Virus record (IMG/VR): IMGVR_UViG_3300022924_000012
Location: 1 to 40,324 of that record
DNA length: 40,324 bases
Strand: one strand, 5' to 3'
From: a virus
Position 1 is the stretch's first letter; every line of letters begins with the position of its first letter. Position numbers and translations under genes: made by a program. This document shows positions 1,293 to 39,553 of the stretch, one piece after another. Under the pieces are notes generated by a model. It saw only the letters and a list, made by a program, of their open reading frames with translations. It was not told where the DNA came from and did not search any database.

Positions 1293-1315
1293 TTATGTAA
1301 AATTGATGTTACAAA

Positions 1316-1345
1316 CAAATGTACAAAATAATTTATAAATGCAAA
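1316..1345 (-). promoter_or_regulatory. Promoter for protease and major capsid
   Basis: On the minus strand, TTTG (1342-1345) is followed by 18 nt and TACATTTG (1316-1323), a full match to the Bacteroidota -33/-7 consensus. The ATG of the protease is 23 nt downstream. It partly overlaps the divergent promoter region of the plus-strand gene at 1361. Confidence 0.75.
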
Positions 1346-1349
1346 TATG

Positions 1350-1357
1350 TATTTTTG
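1350..1357 (+). promoter_or_regulatory. -7 element of a near-leaderless promoter
   Basis: TATTTTTG matches TAnnTTTG and ends 3 nt before the ATG at 1361. With the usual distance from -7 box to start site, transcription would begin at or next to the ATG, giving a leaderless or nearly leaderless mRNA. No clear TTG is present at -33. Confidence 0.6.
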
Positions 1358-1360
1358 TGT

Positions 1361-1612
1361 ATGAAAAAAGTTAATTGGGTGTTTTGGTTCAATGTATCAA
1401 TAAGAAGAAATTGGTTTTCATATTTTTGGAAAACAAGAGGTGCTAATTTTATTGAAATTCAGTTCTTTATATTTAAAATATCGATTGGATTACCCTGGCA
1501 TAAAAACTATATTAACTCAATTATAAGGGATTATGGCAGTAATGCTAGTTTGTTAAAAACAAATGAAATGAATTTAAAGTCACGATGGGCCATTCTTATG
1601 CCCATTTTTTAA
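1361..1612 (+). CDS. Moron-like small protein, unknown function (83 aa)
   Basis: A plus-strand gene inserted between two minus-strand head genes. The start at 1361 is chosen because the -7 box ends at 1357, so an upstream start would lie before the transcript. The protein is rich in Trp and Phe (WVFWFN, NWFSYFW) and has a centre like FFIFKISIGLPW, resembling small unknown proteins common in phage genomes. There is no signal peptide or clear membrane span. The stop codon lies in the T-run of its own terminator, and the ORF overlaps the end of the minor head gene by 4 bp. A cargo gene with its own control is the best reading; function is unknown. Confidence 0.6.
   Translation: MKKVNWVFWFNVSIRRNWFSYFWKTRGANFIEIQFFIFKISIGLPWHKNYINSIIRDYGSNASLLKTNEMNLKSRWAILMPIF
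1585..1610 (+). terminator. Intrinsic terminator of the 1361 cassette
   Basis: ATGGGC (1585-1590) pairs with GCCCAT (1600-1605) around a 9-nt loop, followed by a run of six T. It serves the plus strand; on the minus strand the hairpin has no T-tail. Confidence 0.8.
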
Positions 1613-2436
1613 CTGGCACCTATAAGTTTACCGTTTACTATCCTGCCCAAACTAATTAGCCTGTTATACCTATTTTGGGACATTACCGATTGAGTACAAC
1701 GGCAGTTAATACGATTTGCAGGTTTTAGGTTTATATCACCGGGCCGATTGCACAAGTCACCACCTAAATCATAAAGATCATCAATTGGTAATATAGTATT
1801 GTTTTCTGCTAAGTGTGTATTCCTTTCACGCTCATCATTACGGCCTAACCAAACCTTATAACCTTGACCTCCGTTCTGATCTATCCAAGACCTGGCACCT
1901 ATCTCTTTCCCTAGATTTGATATGGTTGTAGCCTCTGTCCTGGATATTGAAAGCGATCGTGATTTCATTGCATCTTTAACATTCTTAAAGAATAACCTAA
2001 CTCGGCCTAATCTATCCAGCCCCAAGAAAGCCTCATCACCTAGCGCCCTGGTTATTATGTCAATTGTAGTATCATTTAGTTGTCTCTGTATTTGATAGGT
2101 GTATTTAAGCGCATAATCCTTCAATGTACCCGACCAAATATCGACTAAGAACTCAATTGCACTTGCCTTAACCCCTTCATTATTCCTTTGCCAGTAGTAT
2201 TCATTCTTAGCGAACTTCATCCCGATGATCTGGTAAACTTGCGGATATGTAAGCATCCAAACGTCTTCCTTGATCAGCTTTTCTACAGGTACATTGTCTG
2301 TTCCGAAATCTTCAACCCATTTAAGAACAGGAGCAATGTTAGCCGCTAATGCTTTACGGAAATATGGCAGTGCTTGCTTCTCAGCTATTGAATGAGCCTT
2401 AGCAAACCGTTCACGTTCTTTGTCAAATTCCTTCAT
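1609..2436 (-). CDS. Minor head protein (SPP1 gp7 / Mu gpF type)
   Basis: A 275-residue protein with the C-terminal signature of the phage head morphogenesis family: SRTEATTISN (about residues 164-173), then W, a DERERNTH segment, and PGDINLKPANRINCRC near the end, with the conserved Asn-Cys-Arg-Cys. Family members sit inside the head near the portal and help assembly and DNA ejection. It lies directly downstream of the portal and a 56-aa coupled ORF, the normal place. The stop overlaps by 4 bp the convergent gene at 1361-1612. Confidence 0.88.
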   Translation of the reverse strand: MKEFDKERERFAKAHSIAEKQALPYFRKALAANIAPVLKWVEDFGTDNVPVEKLIKEDVWMLTYPQVYQIIGMKFAKNEYYWQRNNEGVKASAIEFLVDIWSGTLKDYALKYTYQIQRQLNDTTIDIITRALGDEAFLGLDRLGRVRLFFKNVKDAMKSRSLSISRTEATTISNLGKEIGARSWIDQNGGQGYKVWLGRNDERERNTHLAENNTILPIDDLYDLGGDLCNRPGDINLKPANRINCRCTQSVMSQNRYNRLISLGRIVNGKLIGAS

Positions 2437-2593
2437 CTGGAAGGTCTATTTTAGATACATTAAGTTGCGCCTCCATTTGCCCGAATTTGTCGTAAGATTC
2501 CTCAATTAATATAAATGCATCTTCCATTCCCTTATTATAGGATTGGATTAATAGCGATGCATCCAGTGTGATATGAAATTCAGCCTTAGCCAT
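2423..2593 (-). CDS. Small protein between portal and minor head genes (56 aa)
   Basis: The ATG at 2593 overlaps the portal stop codon (TAATG), a sign of translational coupling, and the end overlaps the minor head gene by 14 bp. The protein starts MAKAEFHITLDASLL and is acidic in the middle. I do not recognise a family. Its tight packing between two head genes suggests a small virion or assembly protein. Confidence 0.65.
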   Translation of the reverse strand: MAKAEFHITLDASLLIQSYNKGMEDAFILIEESYDKFGQMEAQLNVSKIDLPDEGI

Positions 2594-3957
2594 TACAGTT
2601 GATTTACGTCATTCGGATTAGGTGTATCAGCGAAAGGATCGGCAAAAACATTGTCTAGCGGAGTAAGGCCATTAGGGACTAAATACTTGTTCATATTCGG
2701 ATCAGGATCTTCATCATAAGCAAATAATTTACGTTTCTCATTGCCTGTAATGTACCAGGCGTCCCCGTATGTTGTTTTCATTAGGGCTAAGTCAGGCGCT
2801 AATTCGGCAAACTCTGTCAGGTCATGGCTTACATCTAATCGCTCCCCCCTATACCATTTCTTAGAGAATGTTTTAAACTTCATGTCGAATTTACGCAATT
2901 CAGACACAACCACATTAGTAACCAATTGCTTTTCAGCTACCTTCACATTATTTTCAGTACCTCCCGACTTATCACCGATTAGGATTGAATTAACACCCCA
3001 ACCTGCAGCAATACGGACAGCGTCCTGGTCATCTGCGGCAATGGCGTTTAAGTCGATTAGCGTATCCCCTAGCTTATCAACCTTAATTGCGCCATTTGTA
3101 ACATGGATACGACCATTATTACTTGCGCCTTGCCATTCCGATTCAACTGTGCGTTTAATGCTCTCTACCTGTGTTTTTTCCAGCTTAGAATAGCTTTTAC
3201 CGTCTTGTACAAGGATATCAGAACTTATAATAGTTCCCGTACCACCGTTTTTAAATGCCGCACCCTGAGCCAAATCATTCTGATCATTCTTAGCAATTGC
3301 AGATCCTACTGCTTGCATAGGTGAGTAACCGCCATTTTTAGGGTCATTTGGCGACCACTTAGCTAAGTGCATTACATCGTCAAAAGGAAGATCAACAGTT
3401 TTACCGTCCCATGTATTGAATGAATAACCAGTGATAGGTTTGCGCCAATCACCATCAACACGCTTAATCGATACCCTGTCTGATGGTAAGCAATGAAGGA
3501 ATACAGGATCACTAGCGCCACGTTCAACGAATAAGAACCCGTCACCAGTCAGCTCATAATTAAACCAGAAAGATTCACGCAACTCAATCCCTGTCTGATA
3601 TTCATTAGGGTTGTTTAACAGGTCAATTAATGGGTGGCTATCCAATTCCTCTAATGCTTTAGTAAACCGGATATTAAATTGCCCTGTATCGTTCCCTTTT
3701 GCGAAGTTATAAGACTTTACCCTGGCAAGATCCTTTTCGCTCTTAACCTTGCTTACAAGTATAGGTGCTTCGACTAGCTTTCTAACCAGAACATTAACTA
3801 CCGCATAAACTATTTTGTTCTCATATCCTTTAGATAATTGAGCCTGTTTGCCTTTATAGTTCCATCCAAACGTGCCACCTAAAAGCATTGTTACTCCCGG
3901 CGAATAATAGGCTTTAGTGCCCATTACATCCTGCCACGCTTTTTTGAATATATTCAT
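2593..3957 (-). CDS. Portal protein (HK97/SPP1-type)
   Basis: Predicted dodecameric portal of 454 residues, the channel for DNA packaging and the base for the neck. Landmarks are the N-terminal VYAVVNVLVRKLVEAPI helix region, LIDLLNNPNEYQTG, the ELTGDGFLFVERG segment, a HLAKWSPNDPKNGGYSP motif and IAAGWGVNSILIGD, all characteristic of the phage portal family. Its place between terminase and minor head protein is standard. Forty-six bases separate it from the terminase stop, with no good promoter seen. Confidence 0.92.
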   Translation of the reverse strand: MNIFKKAWQDVMGTKAYYSPGVTMLLGGTFGWNYKGKQAQLSKGYENKIVYAVVNVLVRKLVEAPILVSKVKSEKDLARVKSYNFAKGNDTGQFNIRFTKALEELDSHPLIDLLNNPNEYQTGIELRESFWFNYELTGDGFLFVERGASDPVFLHCLPSDRVSIKRVDGDWRKPITGYSFNTWDGKTVDLPFDDVMHLAKWSPNDPKNGGYSPMQAVGSAIAKNDQNDLAQGAAFKNGGTGTIISSDILVQDGKSYSKLEKTQVESIKRTVESEWQGASNNGRIHVTNGAIKVDKLGDTLIDLNAIAADDQDAVRIAAGWGVNSILIGDKSGGTENNVKVAEKQLVTNVVVSELRKFDMKFKTFSKKWYRGERLDVSHDLTEFAELAPDLALMKTTYGDAWYITGNEKRKLFAYDEDPDPNMNKYLVPNGLTPLDNVFADPFADTPNPNDVNQL

Positions 3958-4003
3958 GAATGTAAAACTAAGCTATTTTACGTTAAGTTACAAAAAAGTT
4001 ACA

Positions 4004-5305
4004 TTATACCATTTCTGATTCTAAATCCAAATCTTCCTGAATCTCAAAATAGCAACGCATCATTATTGCATCAGAGTAATCCGGTGAACGGCCTAATAAT
4101 TCCTTTACGGCATCTTTAGGTATGATCTTCTTTTTTCCGTCCTTATCCATATCTTTCTGTTTTACTTGCTCCAGTTCCTCAATTGTTTCAGCTACCATAT
4201 CGGATTCAGTGATGCAACCTAAATACATTAGCGATGCGTTAACAATTTCAGATAGCTTGTAATAGCATTGAGCCTTTAGGTTTTCAAAGTTTTCTGAATA
4301 ACGGGGGCTGGAATTATTAACGAATCCTACACATCCCAATATATCAACCACGCCACCGCCTACACCGTCCTCATCACATATCACTTGCGATAACGGCACC
4401 ATGTATTCGTTCTTTAGATCAGCAATAGCCTGAGCAACCCAAGTAACTGATTTCTTGGATAGGACAACTACTTTAATTGCTCTTAATCCATCCCATACTA
4501 TGATAACTGATTTATCCTTACCAAACCTAGCAATATCTGCAGTTATGTATTTTTTACCTGATCTGACAAAGGTATTCGACCATAGATTGTTGATTGCGTC
4601 GATTGACATTAACGCTGCCGGATCATCATCGTATTCCCAATTGCCGTAATAAAGTCGCTCTCGGCTATTCTTTTCCATCCTAAGCAATCGTTTTACGTAT
4701 GAGGGTGGTAAGTATGGGTTGTCTTTAGGAAGGGCCTGTATGAACTTAATATCTTCTGGTAGCACACCGTCCCGATTAGGTTTATATACCTTGCTATATA
4801 CCCATCCTTTTGAGGGGTTACAGCTACCTAGTTGTTTAGGCATCAAATCAAACTCATTGAGCTTATACCTAATACGGGAGCCGACAACGTCCCATGCCTT
4901 ATGAACTATCTGGTTACACTCGTCTATAAAAGCCCTGGTAATCTCTAGCGACCCTAAACTATCAAATTCTTTGTCGGATGGATATAAGAATAAATCCTTT
5001 AGGAGGGTATCACTGCCATTTTTCCAATGGATGATATTTTCCTGTGCATTAAACTTGAATTGATTCGATACTTTATGGATTGAGGCTTGCTCAAAGAAGG
5101 TGTTAAGTGTTGTTTCTTTTAATGTCTTTAGTTTGGATCTACCTAACAAGCCTCTTGAACCTGGATATTTTTGCGCTTGCTCAATCTCCCTTAAACAGCC
5201 CAATGCAGTCTTGCCGCCACCGGCAGCGCCACCGTATATGATCTCACTTGTTACTTTATCATTCAGATAATAAACGGCATGTTTCTGTTTAGTCAGTAGG
5301 GGCAT
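4004..5305 (-). CDS. terL: Terminase large subunit
   Basis: Packaging ATPase-nuclease of 433 residues. Walker A is GGAAGGGKT (25-33) and Walker B is AFIDEC (125-130, Asp128-Glu129). The C-terminal RNase H-like nuclease has candidate metal ligands at Asp257 (ITADIARFGKDKS) and Asp311/Asp313 (VICDEDGVGGG), with a further Asp in SPDYSDA near the end. It uses ATP to drive DNA into the prohead through the portal and cuts the concatemer. It overlaps the small subunit by 17 bp. Confidence 0.93.
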   Translation of the reverse strand: MPLLTKQKHAVYYLNDKVTSEIIYGGAAGGGKTALGCLREIEQAQKYPGSRGLLGRSKLKTLKETTLNTFFEQASIHKVSNQFKFNAQENIIHWKNGSDTLLKDLFLYPSDKEFDSLGSLEITRAFIDECNQIVHKAWDVVGSRIRYKLNEFDLMPKQLGSCNPSKGWVYSKVYKPNRDGVLPEDIKFIQALPKDNPYLPPSYVKRLLRMEKNSRERLYYGNWEYDDDPAALMSIDAINNLWSNTFVRSGKKYITADIARFGKDKSVIIVWDGLRAIKVVVLSKKSVTWVAQAIADLKNEYMVPLSQVICDEDGVGGGVVDILGCVGFVNNSSPRYSENFENLKAQCYYKLSEIVNASLMYLGCITESDMVAETIEELEQVKQKDMDKDGKKKIIPKDAVKELLGRSPDYSDAIMMRCYFEIQEDLDLESEMV

Positions 5306-5801
5306 TCGGGTTCTCTCCTTCGCCTAAGTTAATGACATTGTTGATAACTGGCGCTGATTGGCTGTTGTCTTTCTCGAAGTAACCAAAATGTTTTCCAATC
5401 TTATCAAGGGCACTAAGTTTATCATAAAGTTTAAATTCAACAACAGTTTTTCCCCCACCTTCAAATTCTGTAATAGACTTTTTAACAGAAGAAACAGCTT
5501 TAGCCTTTACCGGGTCAATTTGAGAAATATCATTTATTGAATTTTCAATACCAATATAATCCTGAATATTACTAAAACCTAATACAGACAATTCAGAAAG
5601 CCATTTTTCCTTTGATATACCGTGTTTCTCTGATGATTCAGCCTTTAGTTTAGCTAAATAATCCTGAATGTCTTCACGTTGTAATAATTGATAACCTGAT
5701 TGCCTCGCAGCGTCTTTGGTAAAACCTGCATATATAGCTGATTCAGAGGCATTTAATGTCTCGAAATACTTATCAGCAAACCTTATATGATTTTCTTGCA
5801 T
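5289..5801 (-). CDS. terS: Terminase small subunit
   Basis: DNA-recognition subunit of the packaging motor, 170 residues from the ATG at 5801. The N-terminal FADKYFETLNASESAIYAGF and the following AARQSGYQLLQRED are the helix-turn-helix signature of the Terminase_2 family. The C-terminal tail is Asn/Pro rich and likely binds the large subunit. An in-frame ATG at 5822 would add MHLHLFT; the promoter -7 box ends at 5830, so both starts are possible, but 5801 better matches the family N terminus. Confidence 0.9.
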   Translation of the reverse strand: MQENHIRFADKYFETLNASESAIYAGFTKDAARQSGYQLLQREDIQDYLAKLKAESSEKHGISKEKWLSELSVLGFSNIQDYIGIENSINDISQIDPVKAKAVSSVKKSITEFEGGGKTVVEFKLYDKLSALDKIGKHFGYFEKDNSQSAPVINNVINLGEGENPNAPTD

Positions 5802-5829
5802 TGTAAATAAATGTAAATGCACTTAAACC

Positions 5830-5861
5830 CAAATCTACGCAATCCCTTTTAAAAGTGCAAA
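5830..5861 (-). promoter_or_regulatory. Late promoter for the terminase-portal operon
   Basis: On the minus strand TTTG (5858-5861), a 20-nt spacer and TAGATTTG (5830-5837) give a full Bacteroidota consensus. It lies between the last small early gene (stop at 5864) and the terminase, which fits the early/late boundary. Confidence 0.78.
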
Positions 5862-5863
5862 TG

Positions 5864-6718: not shown

Positions 6719-6720
6719 TG

Positions 6721-7188: not shown

Positions 7189-7225
7189 TCTTTCTTTTCC
7201 TTTACGCCTTTCGGCAGTTTAACCC

Positions 7226-7687: not shown

Positions 7688-7690
7688 TTT

Positions 7691-7976: not shown

Positions 7977-7980
7977 GATT

Positions 7981-19091: not shown

Positions 19092-19259
19092 ATGATAACA
19101 ACTACTACTATTCGGCTTAATGACAGGGTCAAGAAAGCTGCACATGAAAAAGCAAAGAATCATCTTATAAGAGGTGGATTTTCGGTCTATGTAGAAAATC
19201 TTATTCGTGCTGACTTAAAAAAAGATGGTTTAACCTTTAATGCGGAGGAAAAGAAATGA
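19092..19259 (+). CDS. Ribbon-helix-helix regulator (55 aa)
   Basis: The product starts with a beta-strand-like ITTTTIRLNDRVKKAAHEKA and continues into a helix with FSVYVENLIRADLKK, the layout of Arc/CopG ribbon-helix-helix proteins, which bind DNA as dimers through the N-terminal strand. It lies in the divergent control region next to paired AT-rich repeats, so self-regulation and control of the early promoter are plausible. Its stop overlaps the next ATG. Confidence 0.68.
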   Translation: MITTTTIRLNDRVKKAAHEKAKNHLIRGGFSVYVENLIRADLKKDGLTFNAEEKK

Positions 19260-19429
19260 TCTGGCCTTTAATCTACTTAGGATTACTTTGTCTAGGACTG
19301 GGTATTTCATTGGAGCAACACGGAAAAGCCAAAACAGGAAAGCATAATGTGTGGCACGGATTGATTACGGTTGCGATTATTATTTACATTTTATATAAAG
19401 GCGGATTCTTTAACCCGTTATTAAACTAA
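19256..19429 (+). CDS. Small two-helix membrane protein (57 aa)
   Basis: Coupled by ATGA to the RHH gene. Two hydrophobic segments (about 3-19 and 34-48) flank a short basic loop HGKAKTGKHN. Small proteins of this form are common in Bacteroidota phages; function unknown. Confidence 0.68.
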   Translation: MIWPLIYLGLLCLGLGISLEQHGKAKTGKHNVWHGLITVAIIIYILYKGGFFNPLLN

Positions 19430-19464
19430 CCCCCGGCTTGTCTGTATAAATAAAGAGAAGGAAA

Positions 19465-19803
19465 ATGAAAGAATTAGAAGAACCAAAAATAGGTCAAATA
19501 ATATATTCTGAGAATAGGTATTCTGGAATACTACAACATGCAGTAACTAAAATTACACCAACCCAAGTAGTTTTAGATGGAGGAACTACAAGGATTAAAA
19601 AACCTTTAAAAGAAAGGAATTACGAAATTGGTAGTTCTGGATGGAATCAATCTGTTTATACATTGCATTCTAAAGAAATGGAGAAAAGATATAATAAGCA
19701 GAATCAGATAAGAGTTATTAAAAGTCATGACTTATCAAAGTTCAATTCCGATGTGGTTCAGGAAATTTATAATATAATTGTAGAGGCAGTAGATAAACCC
19801 TAA
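19465..19803 (+). CDS. Unknown protein (112 aa)
   Basis: Preceded by an A/G-rich stretch (AAAGAGAAGGAAA) that could act as a ribosome site. The N-terminal half (IGQIIYSENRYSGILQHAVT) is beta-rich. It ends in a 4-bp overlap with the convergent spanin gene. No family recognised. Confidence 0.65.
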   Translation: MKELEEPKIGQIIYSENRYSGILQHAVTKITPTQVVLDGGTTRIKKPLKERNYEIGSSGWNQSVYTLHSKEMEKRYNKQNQIRVIKSHDLSKFNSDVVQEIYNIIVEAVDKP

Positions 19804-22581: not shown

Positions 22582-22896
22582 ATGAATGCTAGACAAGAAT
22601 TTATAAGCCACACAAAAGGCAAAAAAGTTAAATGTGCTTCAAGTAGTTTTATAGACTATGCCACATGGAAGCCTAATCCTAAAACAGTTGCGTTATTAAA
22701 AACAGGCTATTCCAAAGCTGAATTAAAATACTTTTTATCTAAAACAGATGTGACTTACAGTTCTGGATATGGAACACAGGAGCTATACGGATTTATATGG
22801 TATGAGGATGGGACTTGGTCTGAGAGATATGAATACGATGGATCAGAATCATGGGATTATAAGTCTTCACCTAAAATACCAGCTACATTATGTTAA
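22582..22896 (+). CDS. Conserved unknown protein (104 aa), first gene of plus-strand cassette
   Basis: Starts MNARQEFISHTKGKKVKCAS and has GYGTQELYGFIWYEDGTW, a segment I associate with small conserved proteins in Bacteroidota phages. Upstream lies GATATTTAGGGT right before the ATG, only a weak -7 match. Function unknown. Confidence 0.7.
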   Translation: MNARQEFISHTKGKKVKCASSSFIDYATWKPNPKTVALLKTGYSKAELKYFLSKTDVTYSSGYGTQELYGFIWYEDGTWSERYEYDGSESWDYKSSPKIPATLC

Positions 22897-23213
22897 CATT
22901 CGAAGAAATTTACAACGCCACGCCATTTGAGGACGAACATGGCGAACTGATACCGCATGATAAGGTTGCTAAAATGGCGGCTGAGAAATGGGCTAATCAA
23001 AGATGGATTAGTGTTAATGATGCTTTACCAAAACAGACTAATTTTGATTTGGGTTACAGTGATGAGGTTTTGGCTTTTTCTGATAAACTTTTAGGTAAAA
23101 CATTCGTTTCAAGATATGATCATCAAGATGAAACTTGGGGATACGAAAGAGGGCATGATGCAGTTTACAATCAGATTACACATTGGATGTATTTACCAGA
23201 ATTGCCATTATGA
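22890..23213 (+). CDS. DUF551-domain protein (107 aa)
   Basis: QRWISVNDALPKQT (about 37-50) and ITHWMYLPELPL at the C terminus are the two hallmarks of DUF551, a small domain common in phages and of unknown function. It overlaps the upstream gene by 7 bp and the next by 4 bp. Confidence 0.82.
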   Translation: MLTFEEIYNATPFEDEHGELIPHDKVAKMAAEKWANQRWISVNDALPKQTNFDLGYSDEVLAFSDKLLGKTFVSRYDHQDETWGYERGHDAVYNQITHWMYLPELPL

Positions 23214-23332
23214 AAATACTCCTATCCCTAATACTCGCAATAGTCTTGTATGCTTGTTCAAAGAAATACGCTAAGAACATTCCACAATGCAAAGAAAATG
23301 ATGATGACTTAACTAATGATTGGTTTATATGA
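23210..23332 (+). CDS. Small predicted lipoprotein (40 aa)
   Basis: A hydrophobic N terminus (3-13) ends in the lipobox LYAC with Cys16, leaving a 25-residue acidic mature part. Both ends overlap neighbours as ATGA. A surface-exposed small lipoprotein from a phage could block superinfection by acting on receptors, but nothing in the mature part proves it. Confidence 0.7.
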   Translation: MKILLSLILAIVLYACSKKYAKNIPQCKENDDDLTNDWFI

Positions 23333-23607
23333 AAGTAGGTAGCTTAGTAGAATTGGTAGATGATAACTGGCTAGAAAAACATCCAAATGTAAAATATCCT
23401 GTTAAAGGTAAGATATATACGGTAAGAGACTTTGAAATAGACGATTACGATGAGCCATCTTTGTATTTAGTAGAAATTATCAATCCTGTAATGAAGTGGG
23501 ATGATTTCGAAGATAGCGAGTTATCATTTTATGTACATCGGTTCAGGGAACTACAGCCACCGATGGAAATATCAATTGAGGCAATTTTAGAAATGCAGGA
23601 AAAATAA
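23329..23607 (+). CDS. Unknown protein of a small conserved phage family (92 aa)
   Basis: Starts MKVGSLVELVDDNWLEKH and contains VKGKIYTVRDF and VHRFRELQ, a pattern seen in many phage and bacterial small proteins (a KOW/SH3-like fold is likely). ATG at 23329 chosen for the ATGA coupling. Function unknown. Confidence 0.72.
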   Translation: MKVGSLVELVDDNWLEKHPNVKYPVKGKIYTVRDFEIDDYDEPSLYLVEIINPVMKWDDFEDSELSFYVHRFRELQPPMEISIEAILEMQEK

Positions 23608-27484: not shown

Positions 27485-30442
27485 TTAATTGAATAATTCT
27501 GGTGTGTCGATTTCAGCTCTGTTTGCCATAAGTATATTTCCAGCCGCATTAGGGTGAGTGCCGTCTATGTAAACCGATAAATTAGTGCCCTGCGCAGGAT
27601 CATTATTTATTGATGTTGCTATTTGCATTTTCATCCCATTTAAACCAGGTTTCGTTGCCCTGAATGCTTCGATAACAGCATTTTTTGCTACAGCATCAGT
27701 TGAACGCATGGGAGCATTATTGAATATAGGTATAGATCCAGCGGCTACTATCGCATTATAAAGTAATGGTAAATTGGCTTCTACTTCTGATACTTCTCCA
27801 TTAGTCCAAATCATAGCGTCTACGTATTTAGGCTTTAATTTACTTACTTCAGTAGCGACCCTGTTTAATCCTGAATTTACATCCCCGCCATTTCTCCCTG
27901 ACACCGTAGAATTTTGCCCTATTCTTGATGCGAGTATATAAGCCCATCCTTCACCAGGGCCTAACGGTACTGTTGTTGACTGAGTGATACTGTCGCCTAA
28001 GAAATAGACCAGTCCCCCGGCTTCAATCTCAGTAGATATTCTGATTCCACTTATAGTAAAATCTGTCCCGGAAAGTGTGGCAAAAGCAATGTTATCCAAC
28101 CATACCCTTACATTGGACTGATCAGTGCCAATGAATGTTTTTACCCCAGTCAAAGTGTCGTATATGTTTACGGTATAGCTTTGCTGAAACATATTGATTG
28201 CTAAATCAAAAATATATTTCCTTCCAGAAACGAAAGTGTATGGCGTAGTTATTAATGCTCCTTTTGACGTATTTGAACCATCATTACCATTGTGGATCAC
28301 TACATTATTATTTAAAGAGCTTACGCTGACCATAGCTCCATTTAGGGTGTTTAGGTTGCCTCCTGCAGGATTAGATCTGTTTAGAATAGCACCAGTGACA
28401 TTTGCACCTAAAACAAAAGGTATTTGATACTTCCTTACCGCTAGATTATAATCTAGCCTGTGAATGATTAAATTGGCTAAACCAGCAGTAGACGCTTTTA
28501 TTCCCCCTGTTACCTTAACCCAGTCCGTATTGACAAAATTGCTAGGAATGGTTGATTCTGTGAATTTTTCGTCAAGCAAAAGAGTCCCACCCGAATTATT
28601 CGGAACAACAGACTCTGGAGCATCGTATAAGGATTCTTTAATTTTTCCATAAGATACCGTTGTTCTTTTTGCCGAAGCAGTAGCAGCGTCAGCATTCTTG
28701 AAATTGAAAACAACTTTAGCGGCAGTATTAAGGGATAAAGGAATAACTGGCGTATAAGCCCCGTTTTCAAGTGGAAAATCAGAAAGTAATAAGTTTCCAA
28801 TAGCCACATTCGATGAGTTGAAAACTTTACCCAAAATACTTGGGGTTACGTTTATAGATACGAATCCTGTTAAATTAAAGGCTTCACCTGGCGCAGCGTC
28901 AATAAAGTTTGAGTGTGAAGTAGAGCTTGATGACTGAACTGTGCCAGATGAAGATGAATAGTAGCCAGTAATAGCCTCTGTTATTAAATTACTGCCTGTA
29001 GGCGTATATTCAGCATCAAATAAGTCCCCATTAGTAGGCCGAACCGATAAAGCGGTATCAACTGTTTTCATTTTGGAGACGTAATCACTTTTAGCTACTA
29101 TTTTAGTAGTAGTGAAACTTTCTTTTCCATGATTAGCCAAAAACCTACCCCTTTCGATTACGCAATATTCGCCCCTCAGATTTTCAGGCAAAGAGAAAGA
29201 GGCTACCAATGACCCATTTTTATAGATATTTAAAATTTGTACGGTTTTAAATATTAACTCAAACCTAATGATGTCTGTTACTGGAACATAAGTCGGTGCT
29301 GTTGCAAGCACCGTCTGTTCGCTATAATTCTTTTGTTTAAATATACTACCATCAATCCGGTAAACATAGCCAAATGGCACACCGTCACCGTCAGAGGGAA
29401 GACAGCCAATACCCATAGAAGCATTACCTGTTACAATTGATCTAATGAAAGAATCCGTCACCATAACGGTATCTAAGTTTATATCTGGCGTAATAGGGAA
29501 ACTGCTTACATTTTTACCTGTTCTGTAGTAAAGACATATATTAACATCCCCTGATGATCGCCCAAAATCTACGCTACTTCCTAAATCCGTCTGTGTAACG
29601 CTACTATAGTTCTCCTGATAAACACCTGCCGCAGTATATGCACGAAAAGGCAATGGGGCAACATAGTCGATAACTGAAACATCAGCTATGACTGCAGCTA
29701 AAGCGTCGAATTGAGCCTTAGAAACAATGGTAGCTGGTATGATTGCGGATGACCCTGCGTTTTTATACTTCGCTATAATTCTATCGCCAGCACCTAAAGG
29801 GGTAGGCAGTGTTATTGTTCCAGTCGCAAGATCAAAATTTAAAGTTCCGTCAATCTCGCTAGCTGTGTTAGTGTCATTGTCGATATAAATAACTGATTTA
29901 TTTATAATCACATGATCTACGAACCTACCTATTAACGATGGGAACACAAACAGCGTTTGTCCTTCTGTTGCGGTAACTATGTCTGTCCAATAATATAAAG
30001 TGTCCTGCACAGTCTCGGTTAAGTCGCCAATTTGCGAGGTTAACGCACCATCAGCAGAAAGCCTGTTTGATGTTTCTTCCGCTAACTGTCCAGATATAAC
30101 ATCTAATTGCCCGTTTAAAACTGAGATTAAAGAGTTAATGTCATCTTGGCTATATCCGTTAGATACCTTCTTTTCCAGCGTTACCGAATCCCTAAACCAA
30201 TAAGCATCATTAATACCGCCTGTAATGCGACCATCAGAACCTAGTACACCGCCTGTATTTACGATACACTCAAAAGTCGGGTCTTTAAACTCATCAGCAA
30301 AATAGTTCTGACATTCCGACACGCTTACAAATTGCCTGTATAATTGCCTGGCATTATCATAATACAAAGACTTTGCATTTAACGGCAAGTCAGTTATTCC
30401 AAAAGGTATATTTTGCGGCTTGTGGTCTGATGGATTATACAT
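27485..30442 (-). CDS. Tail fibre with C-terminal SGNH/GDSL esterase domain (985 aa)
   Basis: The N terminus (ITDLPLNAKSLYYDNARQLY) probably anchors to the tail. Residues about 95-150 form a coiled coil (VLNGQLDVISGQLAEETSN). A long beta-rich middle follows. The last 175 residues are an SGNH hydrolase: FLGDSIT with Ser818, NGE with Asn881, DGTHPN with Asp960 and His963. Such domains remove acetyl or acyl groups from surface polysaccharide, helping the phage reach its receptor. Family: structural fibre carrying an enzyme tip. It overlaps the head-tail adaptor-like gene by 8 bp. Confidence 0.87.
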   Translation of the reverse strand: MYNPSDHKPQNIPFGITDLPLNAKSLYYDNARQLYRQFVSVSECQNYFADEFKDPTFECIVNTGGVLGSDGRITGGINDAYWFRDSVTLEKKVSNGYSQDDINSLISVLNGQLDVISGQLAEETSNRLSADGALTSQIGDLTETVQDTLYYWTDIVTATEGQTLFVFPSLIGRFVDHVIINKSVIYIDNDTNTASEIDGTLNFDLATGTITLPTPLGAGDRIIAKYKNAGSSAIIPATIVSKAQFDALAAVIADVSVIDYVAPLPFRAYTAAGVYQENYSSVTQTDLGSSVDFGRSSGDVNICLYYRTGKNVSSFPITPDINLDTVMVTDSFIRSIVTGNASMGIGCLPSDGDGVPFGYVYRIDGSIFKQKNYSEQTVLATAPTYVPVTDIIRFELIFKTVQILNIYKNGSLVASFSLPENLRGEYCVIERGRFLANHGKESFTTTKIVAKSDYVSKMKTVDTALSVRPTNGDLFDAEYTPTGSNLITEAITGYYSSSSGTVQSSSSTSHSNFIDAAPGEAFNLTGFVSINVTPSILGKVFNSSNVAIGNLLLSDFPLENGAYTPVIPLSLNTAAKVVFNFKNADAATASAKRTTVSYGKIKESLYDAPESVVPNNSGGTLLLDEKFTESTIPSNFVNTDWVKVTGGIKASTAGLANLIIHRLDYNLAVRKYQIPFVLGANVTGAILNRSNPAGGNLNTLNGAMVSVSSLNNNVVIHNGNDGSNTSKGALITTPYTFVSGRKYIFDLAINMFQQSYTVNIYDTLTGVKTFIGTDQSNVRVWLDNIAFATLSGTDFTISGIRISTEIEAGGLVYFLGDSITQSTTVPLGPGEGWAYILASRIGQNSTVSGRNGGDVNSGLNRVATEVSKLKPKYVDAMIWTNGEVSEVEANLPLLYNAIVAAGSIPIFNNAPMRSTDAVAKNAVIEAFRATKPGLNGMKMQIATSINNDPAQGTNLSVYIDGTHPNAAGNILMANRAEIDTPELFN

Positions 30443-31118
30443 TCTTTGTAAATGTTATGGTGTTTGAACTGTTTGTAAGGTATATTTTAGCCTTTGACTG
30501 ATAGTAATTGAACCCGTTTTTATTCACTACAGGATACCACCTTACGTTTGGAATATCCCCGTAATCAAGTTCGTCGATATAATAGTGGTCAAATTCCATG
30601 AATGCTTCCGGTACTTTAACGTATAACCGCTTGCCTGTAGACCCGAATATGAACGGCAATACTAAGCTAGTCGAACCATTCGGCACTATCTTAGCGAACT
30701 GGAACGGTATATCTTGCTCGTTACCGTAGTAATCCGTATCACTATACGCCCACTGGATGAAGTTAGTTGCGTTATATACCCTCGTTGGCGTACTTATACT
30801 TACTGCGACTATTACCAACTCTTGATTATAAACCAGATCAGGAATGGCGCTCGTAATGATGAACATCGAATTGCGGTACTTCACCTGCATATCAGGTAAT
30901 ACGTTCTTATCAATCCTGTCCCTTACAGTAAACCGAATAGTAGGCTTAATAAACTCCTGATTGGCTTGTATTTCCCGTCCTGCTGATAATTGCTCAACTT
31001 TAGCGGATGTAGCCCAATATAAAGCTAATACCGGATCAACCCCGCCAGAATCGTTAGCCACATCCTGATCGGAGTAGATTTCTATTTTCTGATTGATAAG
31101 TCCGGTCGGTGTGTTCAT
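30435..31118 (-). CDS. Head-tail adaptor-like protein with C-terminal extension (227 aa)
   Basis: The N-terminal 110 residues (GLINQKIEIYSDQDVANDSG, then WATSAKVEQLSAGREIQANQ and FTVRDRIDKN) look like the SPP1 gp16/HK97 head-tail joining fold. The C-terminal half (from about residue 115) is a separate beta-rich domain. It is an unusual place for this fold, between the baseplate gene and the tail fibres, suggesting a tail-tip part built from the same fold. The ATG is 4 nt after a TACATTTG box. Confidence 0.65.
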   Translation of the reverse strand: MNTPTGLINQKIEIYSDQDVANDSGGVDPVLALYWATSAKVEQLSAGREIQANQEFIKPTIRFTVRDRIDKNVLPDMQVKYRNSMFIITSAIPDLVYNQELVIVAVSISTPTRVYNATNFIQWAYSDTDYYGNEQDIPFQFAKIVPNGSTSLVLPFIFGSTGKRLYVKVPEAFMEFDHYYIDELDYGDIPNVRWYPVVNKNGFNYYQSKAKIYLTNSSNTITFTKNV

Positions 31119-31122
31119 TATC

Positions 31123-31154
31123 CAAATGTAACATTTTAGATAGATATAAGCAAA
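31123..31154 (-). promoter_or_regulatory. Promoter for the tail-fibre operon
   Basis: TTTG (31151-31154), 20-nt spacer, TACATTTG (31123-31130) on the minus strand. The ATG at 31118 follows after only 4 nt, so the mRNA is near leaderless. Confidence 0.8.
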
Positions 31155-31169: not shown

Positions 31170-31177
31170 TATATTCG
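31170..31177 (+). promoter_or_regulatory. -7-like element of the RNA ligase gene
   Basis: TATATTCG, one mismatch from TAnnTTTG, ends 4 nt before the ATG at 31182. No -33 TTG is present. Confidence 0.45.
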
Positions 31178-31181: not shown

Positions 31182-31739
31182 ATGAAAAAGATAAGCACGT
31201 TATTTAAGAAAGACCCCAATGATTTGGGTAGAGTCGTTAACGAGATTAATCCTGAAAACGAATGGGTATTCGATGAAAGAGTTAAGGCAACTAGAAAATG
31301 GGATGGTACTGCATGCGCGATCATCGATGGTGAATTGTATAAGCGTTACGATGTTAAAAAAGGCAAAGCGGTTCCTGAAAATGCAATCCCCTGTCAAGAA
31401 CCAGACTTTATTACTGGACATTGGCCACACTGGATAAAATGCGATAGATCAGAGAACGGTAACAAGTGGCATTTTGAGGCATTTGATTCCGATCTTAATT
31501 TAGCTGACGGAACTTATGAGTTAATCGGGCCAAAAATACAAGGCAATCCAGAGAGGGTTATTAAGCATATTCTGATGAAGCATGGAGAATTTGAGCTTAA
31601 TATCCTTAGACATAATAAGCCTACATTCGATACTATATGCTATCATCTTATGGAATGGGATATTGAAGGTATTGTATTCCATCATCCAGATGGCAGAATG
31701 TGTAAAATAAGAAAGTCGGATTTCGGCTTCAAAAGATAA
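31182..31739 (+). CDS. RNA ligase-like nucleotidyltransferase (DUF5565-type)
   Basis: 185 residues with the motifs of the covalent nucleotidyltransferases: motif I ATRKWDGTACAI with Lys39 as the nucleotide acceptor (KxDG), a motif-III-like FEAF/GTYELIGPKIQG region (98-121), motif IV IEGIVFH (161-167) and motif V CKIRKSDF (174-181). No OB fold follows, so this is a minimal ligase of RNA-ligase type rather than a DNA ligase. It would seal RNA ends using ATP, and could repair tRNAs cut by host anticodon nucleases. It is a lone plus-strand gene between two minus-strand tail genes, with promoter and terminator of its own. Family name is from memory. Confidence 0.8.
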   Translation: MKKISTLFKKDPNDLGRVVNEINPENEWVFDERVKATRKWDGTACAIIDGELYKRYDVKKGKAVPENAIPCQEPDFITGHWPHWIKCDRSENGNKWHFEAFDSDLNLADGTYELIGPKIQGNPERVIKHILMKHGEFELNILRHNKPTFDTICYHLMEWDIEGIVFHHPDGRMCKIRKSDFGFKR

Positions 31740-31762: not shown

Positions 31763-31793
31763 CACCCATTGCCGGATAGCGTGGGTGTTTTTT
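31763..31793 (+). terminator. Intrinsic terminator of the RNA ligase cassette
   Basis: CACCCA (31763-31768) pairs with TGGGTG (31782-31787) around a 13-nt loop, followed by six T. The T-run reaches the stop codon of the convergent baseplate gene. Confidence 0.8.
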
Positions 31794-35856: not shown

Positions 35857-35860
35857 GATC

Positions 35861-36160
35861 TTAATTTATTAGTTTTGCTAATCGCTTTTCTTTCTCTTTC
35901 CAGTAAGTAGCTAACCGCCTTTTCATATCTTTTTTACTTATCAATGGCTCATCTTTCTCATCTCCTATTCTCCACAAACTAGCTAAAGAACCTGAGCTTT
36001 CAACGTGTGGCGCTACAGAGAATAAAGCTACATTCCTAAACCAACTTTCTTCCTTATTTTCCTTTTGCTTATACCCCTCACACTTAAGGTCGAAATTATA
36101 CAAGGTAAATCCGGCAAGTTCTTCAACACTCATTCCTAAAACGCCATAAGCAAAACACAT
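35861..36160 (-). CDS. Tail assembly chaperone T domain (made by -1 frameshift)
   Basis: This frame is -1 relative to the gene at 36190-36561 and is open without a stop back to the slippery run at 36214-36226, so it is probably read only as the C-terminal half of a fused G-T protein of about 233 residues. The internal ATG at 36160 is probably not a main start. The frame has VEELAGFTLYNFDLKCEGYK and a Lys/Arg-rich end. G and GT chaperones coat the tape measure during tail assembly. Confidence 0.8.
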   Translation of the reverse strand: MCFAYGVLGMSVEELAGFTLYNFDLKCEGYKQKENKEESWFRNVALFSVAPHVESSGSLASLWRIGDEKDEPLISKKDMKRRLATYWKEKEKRLAKLIN

Positions 36161-36189
36161 GATCTGTCTGCTGTATATACGTATATCCT

Positions 36190-36561
36190 TTAGGGTTGAG
36201 CGTTTAGTTCTTCCTTTTTTTTTAAAGCCTGTTGGCTGAGGTTTATCAGTTCATGCCCCGCTGAGCTTTCACCCCATGCCGCCCACATCCTGTTAGAATC
36301 ATTAGCAAAGTTTTCTTCTGAACCGAATTCATCAAACAGATCCATCGCTTCCTCATAGGTCAATGGTTGCCTTTGCTTTCTTATCGCCTCACCATATAAG
36401 CCGCAATAGAAAAGATCACCTAATAAAGCATAATTGCTTTCTAAAGTGCCCGCTTTCATTTTATGCTGAACTATGTAGGATTTAAATAATAGCCCTGCTT
36501 GTACACCAAAACGAAGCGTATGCTTTTGCCCTTTTATCTCTATTTCAAGTACCCCGTTCAT
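36190..36561 (-). CDS. Tail assembly chaperone G
   Basis: 123 residues between the tail tube and tape measure genes. Contains LRFGVQAGLLFKSYIVQHKM and LTYEEAMDLFDEFGSEE, typical of the small helical chaperone family. The C-terminal ALKKKEELNAQP is the zero-frame product after the slippery site; frameshifting at the poly-A run replaces it with the T domain. Confidence 0.82.
   Translation of the reverse strand: MNGVLEIEIKGQKHTLRFGVQAGLLFKSYIVQHKMKAGTLESNYALLGDLFYCGLYGEAIRKQRQPLTYEEAMDLFDEFGSEENFANDSNRMWAAWGESSAGHELINLSQQALKKKEELNAQP
36214..36226 (-). promoter_or_regulatory. Programmed -1 frameshift site of the tail chaperones
   Basis: The minus strand reads TTTAAAAAAAAAG. In the G reading frame both T-TTA-AAA and A-AAA-AAG heptamers are in phase, the latter being the strongest known bacterial slippery type. 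The -1 frame after it is open through 35861. Any stimulatory structure downstream has not been modelled. Confidence 0.85.
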
Positions 36562-36564
36562 AAA

Positions 36565-37032
36565 TTATGCTACAGGTTCTACAAAGATTTCTCCAGTAAG
36601 GTTAAGGGTTGCAGTGAACGTCACTACATCGTTTGTAGGATTGGTTTCAGAGACATTAGACAACCAACCACGAGCCTCATAGAAACCGTCTGGCCCCTGT
36701 GCTGCATCAGATATTCTCCACCAGCTAATAGTTCCTGCTTTGATTTGCTTTTTAAGAGTGGTAGCATTCTTTTTCGTAGTTAGTTCGCCTGAATCCAATG
36801 TAGATAACTGCCCTTCAATAGAAATAGTACCCGATAGCGTGCCCGGCTTAGATGAAGTATTACCCTGATCACATTGATTAGTGGTAGTCTGTTCTGCCCT
36901 TGTCAGGTTACCTGAACTTGAAGTAAGGCACACAACAGGTAGGTAATTTGCTTCCGTTCCTCGTGTTGCCGTTAATGCAGTAACAGAATCATTTTCAAGC
37001 ATGAATTCATTACCGTTTCTTTGTGTTGCCAT
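36565..37032 (-). CDS. Major tail tube protein (155 aa)
   Basis: The ATG at 37032 gives MATQRNGNEFML; the longer frame to 37065 would include the promoter. The mature fold is beta-rich with the typical endings: AGTISWWRISDAAQ, GFYEARGWLSNVSE, NPTNDVVTFTATLNLTG. This is the tube-forming protein of siphophage tails. It has its own promoter, which fits the high amount needed, and sits upstream of the tail chaperones. Confidence 0.86.
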   Translation of the reverse strand: MATQRNGNEFMLENDSVTALTATRGTEANYLPVVCLTSSSGNLTRAEQTTTNQCDQGNTSSKPGTLSGTISIEGQLSTLDSGELTTKKNATTLKKQIKAGTISWWRISDAAQGPDGFYEARGWLSNVSETNPTNDVVTFTATLNLTGEIFVEPVA

Positions 37033-37054
37033 GTTCTTAAATATTATGTTTTTG

Positions 37055-37085
37055 TAAATGTACAAACATTGGAACGGAATTGCAA
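37055..37085 (-). promoter_or_regulatory. Promoter for the tail tube and tail operon
   Basis: TTG (37083-37085), 20-nt spacer, TACATTTA (37055-37062) on the minus strand, 22 nt before the ATG at 37032. The last base of the -7 box differs from consensus. Confidence 0.6.
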
Positions 37086-37088
37086 TAG

Positions 37089-37235
37089 TTAATTTTGCAG
37101 TACTAGTTGCTCCTTAACCCATCTTTCCTGTAACCAGATTTGCCTTAACTTTTTAAGTGGGCACATGGCTTCAAGAATCGGGTATAATAATTCAGCTTGC
37201 TTTTCTAGCTCTGTGGCTGCTGTGATATCTGACAT
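37089..37235 (-). CDS. Small protein before the tail tube gene (48 aa)
   Basis: The ATG at 37235 overlaps the end of the tail-terminator gene by 31 bp. The product starts MSDITAATELEKQAELLYPI and is a single amphipathic helix pair (LRQIWLQERWVKEQL). Probably a small tail assembly part; function unknown. Confidence 0.58.
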   Translation of the reverse strand: MSDITAATELEKQAELLYPILEAMCPLKKLRQIWLQERWVKEQLVLQN

Positions 37236-37684
37236 AAAACTAATGCTTGCGTCATAAATATTCTATTTGTACTATCTTGGTATTCTAAATTACGGATTGA
37301 TTCTAAGCTGGATTTGCTCATATCGAAAGGATCGGATAATTGAACGTCCATCTTGTATCCGTTGCCATTGGGCCATAATAAAGCAAGTATCAAATCCATT
37401 ATCTTTTCTGAATGTTCGTGATTACCACTATTCGCATTGAATGACACCTTGACTTGTATCTGTATGCTTGCCTGATCGCTACGTAAACATTGAGGACTGT
37501 TGTTATCTGCTGTCTGGTTTTCTAATGCAACTACAGCTGTTACAGGACTTAATCCACCAATGATAGCAGGTTGTTTCTTATTGGTGAATACATCGAATAC
37601 AGGAATAACAACCCCTAGATAAGTGAGTGTGCTCAGCTTCTGTACTAATGCCTCCCTAAGTGGTATATTAACAGACCTTATCAT
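37205..37684 (-). CDS. Tail terminator/completion protein (159 aa)
   Basis: Position (after the gp10-like gene, before the tube protein) and the beta-rich pattern VVIPVFDVFTNKKQPAIIGG, ASIQIQVKVSFNANSG and FMTQALVLCQISQ are those of the tail-terminator family, which caps the tube and links it to the neck. It overlaps the upstream gene by 4 bp. Confidence 0.75.
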   Translation of the reverse strand: MIRSVNIPLREALVQKLSTLTYLGVVIPVFDVFTNKKQPAIIGGLSPVTAVVALENQTADNNSPQCLRSDQASIQIQVKVSFNANSGNHEHSEKIMDLILALLWPNGNGYKMDVQLSDPFDMSKSSLESIRNLEYQDSTNRIFMTQALVLCQISQQPQS

Positions 37685-38184
37685 ATTCTGGCAGTTCTTA
37701 AAATATCTTTTAATTCGTTAACAAATAATATTTGGTTTCTTAGGAATGCGGGCAAGAAATAAGGCTGGGCAAGTATCGTCCCCCGACCGTTGATATAAAA
37801 CTTAGCTGCTAATGCTTTCCATTCGGGTGGCACACTAGCTAAATAAGATCTTGCGCTTTGTCCCGTTCCGAATTCAATCCATGCTGCTACCTCACCTGCA
37901 GAACGTTCAACAAATATAGTAGCCTTGTAGCCTGTTGAATCGATCTGGTATCCTATCGCCTGACTAACTGGAGTCCATCCCTTATCCGGCTTAATATTCC
38001 TTAATGCTTGCGTACCTTTTTGAGTAGCTACATTATCCCCTGGCCCCGGTGCATTCCTTATCGCTTCGACTTCAATTTCCCCAGCATAAAATTCAACAGT
38101 TTCTCTGACTTTCTGTTGAACACTCTCGCTCATCGAATTCAGTCTTTGAGCCACCTCGCTAAAGTTATGCCGGATTCCAGCCAT
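37681..38184 (-). CDS. HK97 gp10-like neck protein (167 aa)
   Basis: Begins MAGIRHNFSEVAQRLNSMSE (helix) and contains VERSAGEVAAWIEFGTGQSA and AQPYFLPAFLRNQILF, the two conserved blocks of the HK97 gp10 family, which helps join tail to head. Typical size and place. Confidence 0.83.
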   Translation of the reverse strand: MAGIRHNFSEVAQRLNSMSESVQQKVRETVEFYAGEIEVEAIRNAPGPGDNVATQKGTQALRNIKPDKGWTPVSQAIGYQIDSTGYKATIFVERSAGEVAAWIEFGTGQSARSYLASVPPEWKALAAKFYINGRGTILAQPYFLPAFLRNQILFVNELKDILRTARI

Positions 38185-38354
38185 TACTTAGACTTTACAG
38201 TTTCAGCTTTATCTTTTACGATCTCAGCTTTGCCTAAGAACACCAAACGATCAGCAAGGTCTTTTGATACCTCATGTTCCTGACCGATTTCTTTTGCGCC
38301 ATCAATGTTGTAAAACTTCAATGCTTTTACCTTTACCAATGCTTGTTCTTCCAT
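38184..38354 (-). CDS. Small head-completion-region protein (56 aa)
   Basis: The stop overlaps the next ATG (TAATG). The product has VKVKALKFYNIDGAKEIG and ADRLVFLGKAEIV, with a Lys-rich tail. It shares a KVKxLK start and an A..L...G.A.. core with 38914-39081, so they may be paralogues. Small proteins of this kind are common in head-tail modules of Bacteroidota phages. Confidence 0.68.
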   Translation of the reverse strand: MEEQALVKVKALKFYNIDGAKEIGQEHEVSKDLADRLVFLGKAEIVKDKAETVKSK

Positions 38355-38362
38355 GATTATAA

Positions 38363-38914
38363 TTATTGAATGAATAAATTTCTACTGAATTTTGATGCGA
38401 TCTTAAACACATCCGGTGATAGCTCATCCATCGGCATACCCTGATTCTTTAACCAGATATCAACCTGCATTTGAATAGCTGTTTTTAATGCTGAGGGTAA
38501 TACTTCATAACCTGCAACGTAAGTCATATTAAATGCACCGTAAGTCTCGTTATATCCCACGGGGTATATAATATAGCAATCATTAAAATAAGGCATTCCA
38601 ATGCGCTTAAAATCAAGTCCTGAGATAGCGTAATCGGTGATAAGTGTATCAGGATCAACAACCGAATTAAGCGAGGTAATAGACTGGATAGGCCCGTAAG
38701 GTATTTCTGCCTCTGATCCGTCCCATTGCCATTGTAAAGTTTTGGTTGCCAGTGATAGGTTTAATTCCTTTTCTAAAACTTCCCTTGCCGCTTTCATAAA
38801 CATCAACAAACGACCTTCAGTAACAGCATAGTCATCGTCTACCTGGCAGAACGCTTTTAGTTCCTCCAGCGTTACAGGCTCATCCGTTACGTCTGTTATT
38901 ATCTTGACTTCCAT
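38363..38914 (-). CDS. Head-tail connector (gp6-like) protein (183 aa)
   Basis: Contains EPVTLEELKAFCQVDDDYA (about 13-31), LLMFMKAAREVLEKEL and a helical C-terminal part, the pattern of the HK97 gp6/SPP1 gp15-type connector that binds the portal and starts the neck. Overlaps the upstream 55-aa gene by 1 bp (TAATG). Confidence 0.85.
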   Translation of the reverse strand: MEVKIITDVTDEPVTLEELKAFCQVDDDYAVTEGRLLMFMKAAREVLEKELNLSLATKTLQWQWDGSEAEIPYGPIQSITSLNSVVDPDTLITDYAISGLDFKRIGMPYFNDCYIIYPVGYNETYGAFNMTYVAGYEVLPSALKTAIQMQVDIWLKNQGMPMDELSPDVFKIASKFSRNLFIQ

Positions 38915-39081
38915 TACTTAGTTTTGTAATTGCCCTTTTGTTGCTTGTTATTGTACGCTTGCTTTTCTTCCTTTACAGCAACTCCAGTGCGCTCGAAATA
39001 ATTTGCCTGCTCATCGGTTATTTCGACTGATTGATTAGCCTTGTTGTCCAGATGATCCTTTAAAAACTTAACCTTTGCCAT
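38914..39081 (-). CDS. Small head-completion-region protein (55 aa)
   Basis: The ATG at 39081 is 20 nt after a TACATTTG box, so this is the first gene of the head-tail operon. The product has MAKVKFLKDHLDNKANQS, then VEITDEQANYFERTGVAV, and a Lys/Asn/Gln-rich tail. It is similar in plan to 38184-38354. Function unknown. Confidence 0.66.
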   Translation of the reverse strand: MAKVKFLKDHLDNKANQSVEITDEQANYFERTGVAVKEEKQAYNNKQQKGNYKTK

Positions 39082-39101
39082 GTTGTGATTTTAAGTATAA
39101 T

Positions 39102-39132
39102 CAAATGTACATATAAATGTTACAATTGGCAA
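39102..39132 (-). promoter_or_regulatory. Promoter for the head-tail connector operon
   Basis: TTG (39130-39132), 20-nt spacer, TACATTTG (39102-39109) on the minus strand. It restarts the late transcript after the capsid terminator. Confidence 0.76.
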
Positions 39133-39145
39133 TAGGTAAGAATTG

Positions 39146-39153
39146 TATATTTG
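39146..39153 (+). promoter_or_regulatory. -7 element of the 39157 cassette
   Basis: TATATTTG ends 3 nt before the ATG at 39157. TTG lies 17 nt upstream (39126-39128). Confidence 0.62.
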
Positions 39154-39156
39154 GGT

Positions 39157-39507
39157 ATGGAAAAGCAAACTAATACCGAATCAGTTTTTAAAATAATACA
39201 AGATATTCCAAGAAGGCCTAATCTAGATTGTTACGGAGGTGCCTTTGAATATAAAAGAGATGGAGTTACATATGTAATTGATTTCCCTTTAACAAGTAAA
39301 CTTCCATTAGATGTAGTATATGAAAGAATAAACAACATTAAAGAAAGTAAAGGTGATCCCGAAATTGCTTTCTCAGAAGAATATCAATTACTAAAAGAGT
39401 TCGTTATAAATGTTGCTTGTGGACAATATTCTGCTATTCAAGCAAAAGAGGTGGCGCAAGAACTATATTTACTTAATAAAATTGATTTTCCTCGCTATAC
39501 TTCATAA
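39157..39507 (+). CDS. Moron-like protein, unknown function (116 aa)
   Basis: A lone plus-strand gene between the major capsid and head-tail genes. The ATG at 39157 is chosen over an in-frame TTG at 39151, which lies in the promoter. The product has FEYKRDGVTYVIDFPLTSKL and helices after it (VYERINNIKESKG and AIQAKEVAQELYLLNKI). No family recognised. Its own promoter and terminator suggest cargo expressed apart from the virion genes. Confidence 0.66.
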   Translation: MEKQTNTESVFKIIQDIPRRPNLDCYGGAFEYKRDGVTYVIDFPLTSKLPLDVVYERINNIKESKGDPEIAFSEEYQLLKEFVINVACGQYSAIQAKEVAQELYLLNKIDFPRYTS

Positions 39508-39540
39508 AAGAGCCCCGAATTAACGAGGCTCTTTATTTTT
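39508..39540. terminator. Bidirectional terminator between convergent genes
   Basis: An 8-bp stem AAAGAGCC/GGCTCTTT with an inner CG/CG extension and short A/T runs on both sides. It can end both the 39157 cassette and the capsid transcript. Confidence 0.85.
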
Positions 39541-39553
39541 AGAAAGGTATGGA

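Follow-up and report, generated by a model that had tools for sequence, protein, structure and literature searches.

Divergent single-gene cassettes and paired promoter boxes in the late operon of a Bacteroidota siphophage

Three cassettes set against the late operon

The window analyzed here is an IMG/VR virus contig (IMGVR_UViG_3300022924_000012) of 40,324 bases, to which all window positions refer, and our subject is a set of three single-gene cassettes that lie on the plus strand within its minus-strand late operon. The minus strand is the coding strand of nearly all window genes, and the map is taken to be circular because the capsid gene spans both contig ends. In the late direction the gene order is terminase, portal, MuF, site 1, protease, capsid, site 3, connectors, major tail protein, tape measure, tail protein, site 2, head-closure protein and fibres, where the numbered sites hold the cassettes. 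The terminase is 58–59% identical to those of the nearest cultured relatives, Flavobacterium phage 11b and Cellulophaga phage phi10:1. No integrase was seen among the window proteins scanned, and a search of the window DNA against a phage collection gave no match.

Site 1 lies between the prohead protease (642..1292, minus strand) and the MuF head morphogenesis protein (1609..2436, minus strand). Its cassette gene, or cargo (1361..1612, plus strand), encodes 83 residues, and searches for a family match and for relatives found none. A −7 box, TATTTTTG (1350..1357, plus strand), ends 3 nucleotides (nt) before the ATG at 1361; a longer reading from ATG 1319 was dropped because the box fits ATG 1361. 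On the minus strand, a late promoter box reading TACATTTG (1316..1323) stands upstream of the protease gene, next to an inverted repeat, TGTAAAATTGATGTTACA (1296..1313), that has one mismatch to TGTAAC-N6-GTTACA and is a possible operator. The terminator hairpin and T-run (1584..1609, plus strand) fall within the end of the open reading frame (ORF) and reach the stop codon of the convergent MuF gene.

At site 2, cassette 2 (31182..31739, plus strand) encodes a 185-residue protein with Lys39 in the motif KWDG. Its −7-like box, TATATTCG (31170..31177, plus strand), lies 4 nt before the ATG at 31182; the late-strand restart box TACATTTG (31123..31130, minus strand) lies 4 nt before the ATG of the head-closure (Hc1) protein (30435..31118, minus strand), and a weak inverted repeat is found at 31127–31144. 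The terminator (31763..31793, plus strand) has a T-run that reaches the stop codon of the convergent tail gene. The protein scored 28.4 bits against Pfam RLIG1 (curated cut-off 25) and matched PHROG 14301 (E 2e-68), and its K39 aligned with the catalytic lysine of PDB 9c6l, which reads M in chain 9c6m. By these matches, we assign the gene to the RLIG1 family of RNA ligases. Like the RLIG1/C12orf29 family (PMC11494293; PDB 9c6l) it aligns over the nucleotidyl-lysine motif; unlike that family, it is shorter and falls in the phage clade PHROG 14301. Repair of RNA cut by host defence would fit such an enzyme. The flanking head-closure protein is itself unusual: the Hc1 domain follows the tail protein in the window and lies between the connector and p37681 genes in relatives, it carries a unique 114-residue C-terminal extension, and its usual place is taken in the window by a 56-residue gene (38184–38354).

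Site 3 adjoins the C-terminal part of the major capsid gene (39554..40303, minus strand), which continues across the contig ends. Cassette 3 (39157..39507, plus strand) encodes 116 residues with no family match; its relatives were limited to an identical copy in the near-twin contig L002/L084, and its single-sequence fold model (predicted local distance difference test score 65) gave no significant viral match. The −7 box TATATTTG (39146..39153, plus strand) lies 3 nt before the ATG at 39157, and TACATTTG (39102..39109, minus strand) stands upstream of a 55-residue connector-region gene. The spacer between them is a predicted bidirectional promoter (39102..39159, given on the plus strand) that aligns with spacers from other junctions whose cassettes are unrelated. 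A hairpin (39507..39534), predicted to terminate in both directions, corresponds to the terminator of the capsid gene in relatives that lack cargo here.

The coordinates and ORFs of the three plus-strand genes held as they had been described in the original prediction, which was made from this DNA alone, as did the late-strand TACATTTG in all three divergent spacers (1316, 31123 and 39102). Each copy has a TTG 18–20 nt upstream; the two strands of the window contain just 8 copies of the sequence in all, and its chance of falling on the late strand of a 63–75 nt spacer is ~0.006 per spacer. The near-ATG boxes proposed for all three cassettes are exact in cassettes 1 and 3 and have one mismatch in cassette 2. 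Hairpins with T-runs are present at all three, with folding energies of −9.3, −14.6 and −13.4 kcal/mol (z −2.4, −3.3 and −4.1) for cassettes 1, 2 and 3, respectively, and the T-run touches the convergent late stop codon in two of them (1 and 2), as predicted. The hairpin credited to cassette 3, which had been presented as its own, is shared with the capsid gene: it folds better on the late strand (−17.3), is similar to the terminator of the capsid gene in L004/L085, a relative with this site empty, and is best read as the capsid terminator, bidirectional in sequence. GC content is 27% in cassette 1, 30.5% in cassette 3 and 38% in cassette 2, the last being the same as the genome (38%). A sigma-70 promoter scan was uninformative for this phylum.

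Empty, filled and refilled sites

Related loci (numbered with an L) were collected in a capsid-anchored comparison, 19 close loci first and then 66; the tail protein, tried as an anchor, retrieved no locus. Site 1 is empty, with the MuF and protease genes adjacent, in L002, L003, L004 and L014; it holds a co-directional 129-residue gene in L005 and three opposite-strand genes, one of them GIY-YIG-like by eye, in L012. Site 3 has the same cargo in L002, is empty in L004–L007, L012 and L014, and is filled with other genes in L003, L015, L016 and L017. The late-strand box is retained in empty site 1 (ATTTGCAT...TACATTTG...GTAAC) and the empty site 3 of L004 retains both the terminator and the TACATTTG box, so the cargo of these two sites was inserted between signals that were already there. 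The window protease allele is found at 94–95% identity both in L004, where site 1 is empty, and in L005, where it has other cargo. At both sites, cargo varies while the flanking late genes stay, the outcome that the original prediction had proposed to look for; the same genes were not always found in the same place, and the reading as morons, accessory genes of the kind known from other phages, stands.

Several neighbouring observations concern these two sites. L002 and the window are near-twins (terminase 99.5%, capsid 98%) whose proteases are only 34% identical, and the joint swap of protease and cassette 1 (642–2436) is a recombination block. In L007 (4590–4690), site 1 holds a tRNA-Leu-like sequence oriented with the late strand, which ARAGORN did not recognize, leaving it unconfirmed as a tRNA. 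At site 3, L017 (7440–7535) and the matching stretch of L016/L038 share a conserved hairpin, TTCGCTACAA...TTGTAGCGA, in a cargo leader of ~80 nt that follows the TACATTTG box, possibly a regulatory leader.

The RNA ligase gene of site 2 was absent from all 19 related records tested. Its relatives occur in 36 other viral loci, where they are mostly co-directional with their neighbours and in no case have a near-start box; the cassette format therefore came with the site and not with the gene.

Paired boxes, shared spacers and an inverted repeat

Box statistics were obtained for 580 annotated late genes of ~70 related loci by scoring TAnnTTTG within 45 nt upstream. Of the 63 late genes that follow a divergent ORF, 34 had the box, compared with 50 of the 517 other late genes (Fisher 1.5e-15), and the association persisted after de-duplication (30/56 versus 40/412, p 1.7e-13), when stratified by gene (odds ratio 7.4, p 1.3e-10) and when the comparison was with co-directional genes having spacers of at least 50 nt (p 8e-4), with all p-values only indicative because the loci are related and the genes were called by a simple script. 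These 34 boxes are spread over 27 unrelated cargo families. Hence the design recurs with unrelated genes, as the original prediction held; its further view that the sites are what recur did not stand, since they are not fixed and several late junctions are used. Terminators were observed at 18 of 39 cargo ends, where 0.7 were expected. A scan of the whole collection with a rigid divergent-box pattern returned 95 stretches; open divergent ORFs were found in 5 among the 80 listed, two of them already known, and the bare box pattern is therefore not specific.

The junction between the head-closure and p37681 genes helps to tell the explanations apart. When the two genes are co-directional they lie within 20 nt of each other in 48 of 49 cases, mostly overlapping, and none of the 49 has a strict box. 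The same junction holds unrelated opposite-strand genes in five loci (L086/L005, L006, L014, L145 and L147), with the boxes TACATTTG, TACATTTG, TATTTTTA, TACCTTGC and TATATTTG, respectively, three strict and two variants, 1–4 nt before the late ATG. At this junction the predicted restart promoter came with the cargo, and it is the only one where the box is clearly new. More generally, at junctions that overlap when empty the restart box lies mostly 1–4 nt from the ATG (three at 17–20 nt), and at gapped ones 14–42 nt (p 2.7e-5).

The original prediction had counted near-leaderless starts as a feature of the cassettes. Boxes 3–4 nt from the ATG make up 8 of 17 strict cargo boxes and 23 of 50 other late-gene boxes, and also precede ordinary window genes (12678, 21204 and 31123, all minus strand), which makes them a trait of the phage group instead. 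In Flavobacterium johnsoniae the −7 box TAHHTTTG covers −12 to −5 (PMC6847099); by this spacing, transcription from a box that ends 3–4 nt ahead of the ATG is predicted to begin at the start codon or one base inside it, giving a leaderless transcript. Leaderless mRNAs amount to 5.5% in F. psychrophilum (PMC9723704), and 5′ untranslated regions under 10 nt to 3.7% in Bacteroides thetaiotaomicron (PMC7366714).

Between L146 and L150 the spacer is 96% identical and the terminator 93%, the shared cargo gene 57% and the neighbouring late gene 84%. Compared with L146, L150 has an additional 88-residue gene exactly behind the −7 box, which suggests that recombination at the promoter–ATG joint, or close beside it, is the probable route of entry for new ORFs. 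Six spacers with unrelated cargo at three junctions (cassette 3; L086 and L145; L146, L150 and L148) align over ~57 nt. A sequence-only profile built from these six, which were picked by eye for similarity, so that its E-values are rough, found further spacers outside its input in 1.03 Mb (E 1.6e-5 to 0.01); the majority precede the major tail protein gene and are flanked on the far side by an opposite-strand ORF.

The left half of this spacer module contains the inverted repeat TGTAAC-N6-GTTACA, which overlaps or abuts the restart box. When one mismatch or none is allowed, 803 kb contain 26 copies, compared to 2 in one shuffle; 20 of the 26 lie outside called genes, against an expectation of 11.5% of positions, and most have a protease, p37681, p37205 or major tail protein gene immediately downstream. 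Lying over the −7 box, the repeat is suggestive of a dimeric repressor that controls the timing of these promoters, and we regard it as a putative operator, possibly bound by such a regulator. Away from the late operon, two more blocks on the plus strand (19092–19803 and 22582–23607) have a comparable divergent TAnnTTTG layout; the 55-residue protein at 19092 resembles, by eye, a ribbon-helix-helix repressor and is a candidate regulator, with no PHROG or Pfam match. Among cargo elsewhere, L145 (1773–2636) carries a PAPS-reductase-type-like opposite-strand guest behind a restart box for p37205, and one member of the cargo set matches the SspD model in PADLOC.

Interpretation and relation to known systems

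We consider it likely that the cassettes are divergent morons behind a two-way promoter that would re-initiate the late operon of a circularly mapping Bacteroidota siphophage. Each cargo gene faces the late gene that comes next head-to-head and meets the preceding one tail-to-tail, and in the arrangement that we propose the 63–75 nt spacer would act as the two-way promoter: one sigma-ABfr-type −7 box would start the cargo at or near its ATG and the other, on the late strand, would fire to restart the late operon and so offset the insertion. A terminator at the cargo end would keep the cargo transcript out of the upstream late gene, the inverted repeat would bind the regulator that sets the timing, and new ORFs would probably arrive at, or next to, the promoter–ATG joint. 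The comparison of sequences shows the presence and absence of cargo, unrelated cargo under alignable spacers, restart boxes that accompany divergent cargo, and new boxes at a junction that overlaps when empty. Cargo seems to be swappable, by means of the two-way promoter, without loss of the structural operon. We also suggest, tentatively, that the spacer is a transferable module with a built-in operator by the restart box, a docking slot where any ORF placed behind the cargo-side box would be expressed while the same late regulator would govern re-initiation of the late operon, allowing overlapping junctions to take up cargo in one step.

Several findings weigh against the reading as morons paired with a restarting promoter. 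At sites 1 and 3 the restart promoter is older than the cargo, so rescue of the late genes was not the reason for its presence; of the fixed plan for adding cargo that had been proposed, the recurrent layout stands, with this amendment for the two sites. An empty site 2 with the same neighbours was looked for in relatives and not found. In the wider set, a strict box is missing from roughly half of the divergent candidates, and some candidates are spurious ORFs from the simple gene caller. Finally, the hairpins of cassettes 1 and 2 have no T-run on the late strand, and late read-through may therefore go on without a restart.

Cargo might simply gather in gaps that already have internal promoters and terminators, where it does least harm, the restart promoters being ordinary internal late promoters. 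The promoter in the four loci with empty site 1, the promoter and terminator at site 3 of L004, and a box in 19 of 75 co-directional late genes with long spacers all agree with this opportunism, yet we think it unlikely to be the explanation: the head-closure/p37681 junction, when empty, is a stop/start overlap without a promoter, the two genes being within 6 nt in 48 of 49 cases, and has a box or variant with five of five divergent cargos, and the box–ATG distance depends on the type of junction. The likeness of the spacers may also reflect a sigma-ABfr consensus and a phage regulator site reached independently and not a copied module. This has a substantial chance of being right, if somewhat short of even, as the restart box and inverted repeat account for the left half of the spacer and the spacers of cassettes 1 and 2 align weakly beyond the boxes; set against it are the almost gap-free alignment of six spacers from three junctions and the finding that, with exact boxes masked, several pairs are still more similar than all 200 shuffles. 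It is very improbable that free-standing homing endonucleases, inserting between genes, left the cassettes as remnants or carried them as passengers: HNH or GIY-YIG endonucleases do occur among the guests of relatives, but few of the 66 cargo proteins match and none of the three window cargos has an HNH, GIY-YIG or LAGLIDADG domain.

How accessory genes enter packed, overlapping structural operons is poorly understood, and the divergent morons described here offer a repeated anatomy with empty, filled and swapped states. For annotation, opposite-strand ORFs behind paired TAnnTTTG boxes in late regions of Bacteroidota phages can be treated as candidate accessory genes, possibly including counter-defence genes, of which the RNA ligase is a first example of accessory cargo.

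The layout was not found in the literature on Bacteroidota phages, as covered by open-access texts. A close parallel exists in the Cellulophaga phages phi18:1, phi17:1 and phi12:1 (Helsingorvirus), in which two opposite-strand genes (gp46-47 or gp44-45) lie directly upstream of the prohead protease, at the MuF/protease site; the cargo strand carries TATATTTG, and the late strand has TAnnTTTA boxes. The Cellulophaga loci differ in that the cargo box is ~19 nt from the annotated start, the cargo is not that of the window, and the record does not describe a cassette; being cultured, these phages make the idea directly testable. Free-standing homing endonucleases of phages likewise insert between genes, and HNH or GIY-YIG genes are found in cassettes of some relatives, unlike the window cargo, which has no nuclease domain. 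Phage morons (PMC3029335, PMC4378225), the mechanism of whose acquisition has been called mysterious (PMC4378225), are similarly single coding regions between genes that are adjacent in relatives, with their own terminator and a promoter of their own, the latter only predicted for the window cassettes, and they usually differ in base composition, as do cassettes 1 and 3. Unlike those morons, the window cassettes oppose the late operon, are paired with a late-strand restart box in the same spacer, and have a spacer sequence that is common to unrelated cargo.

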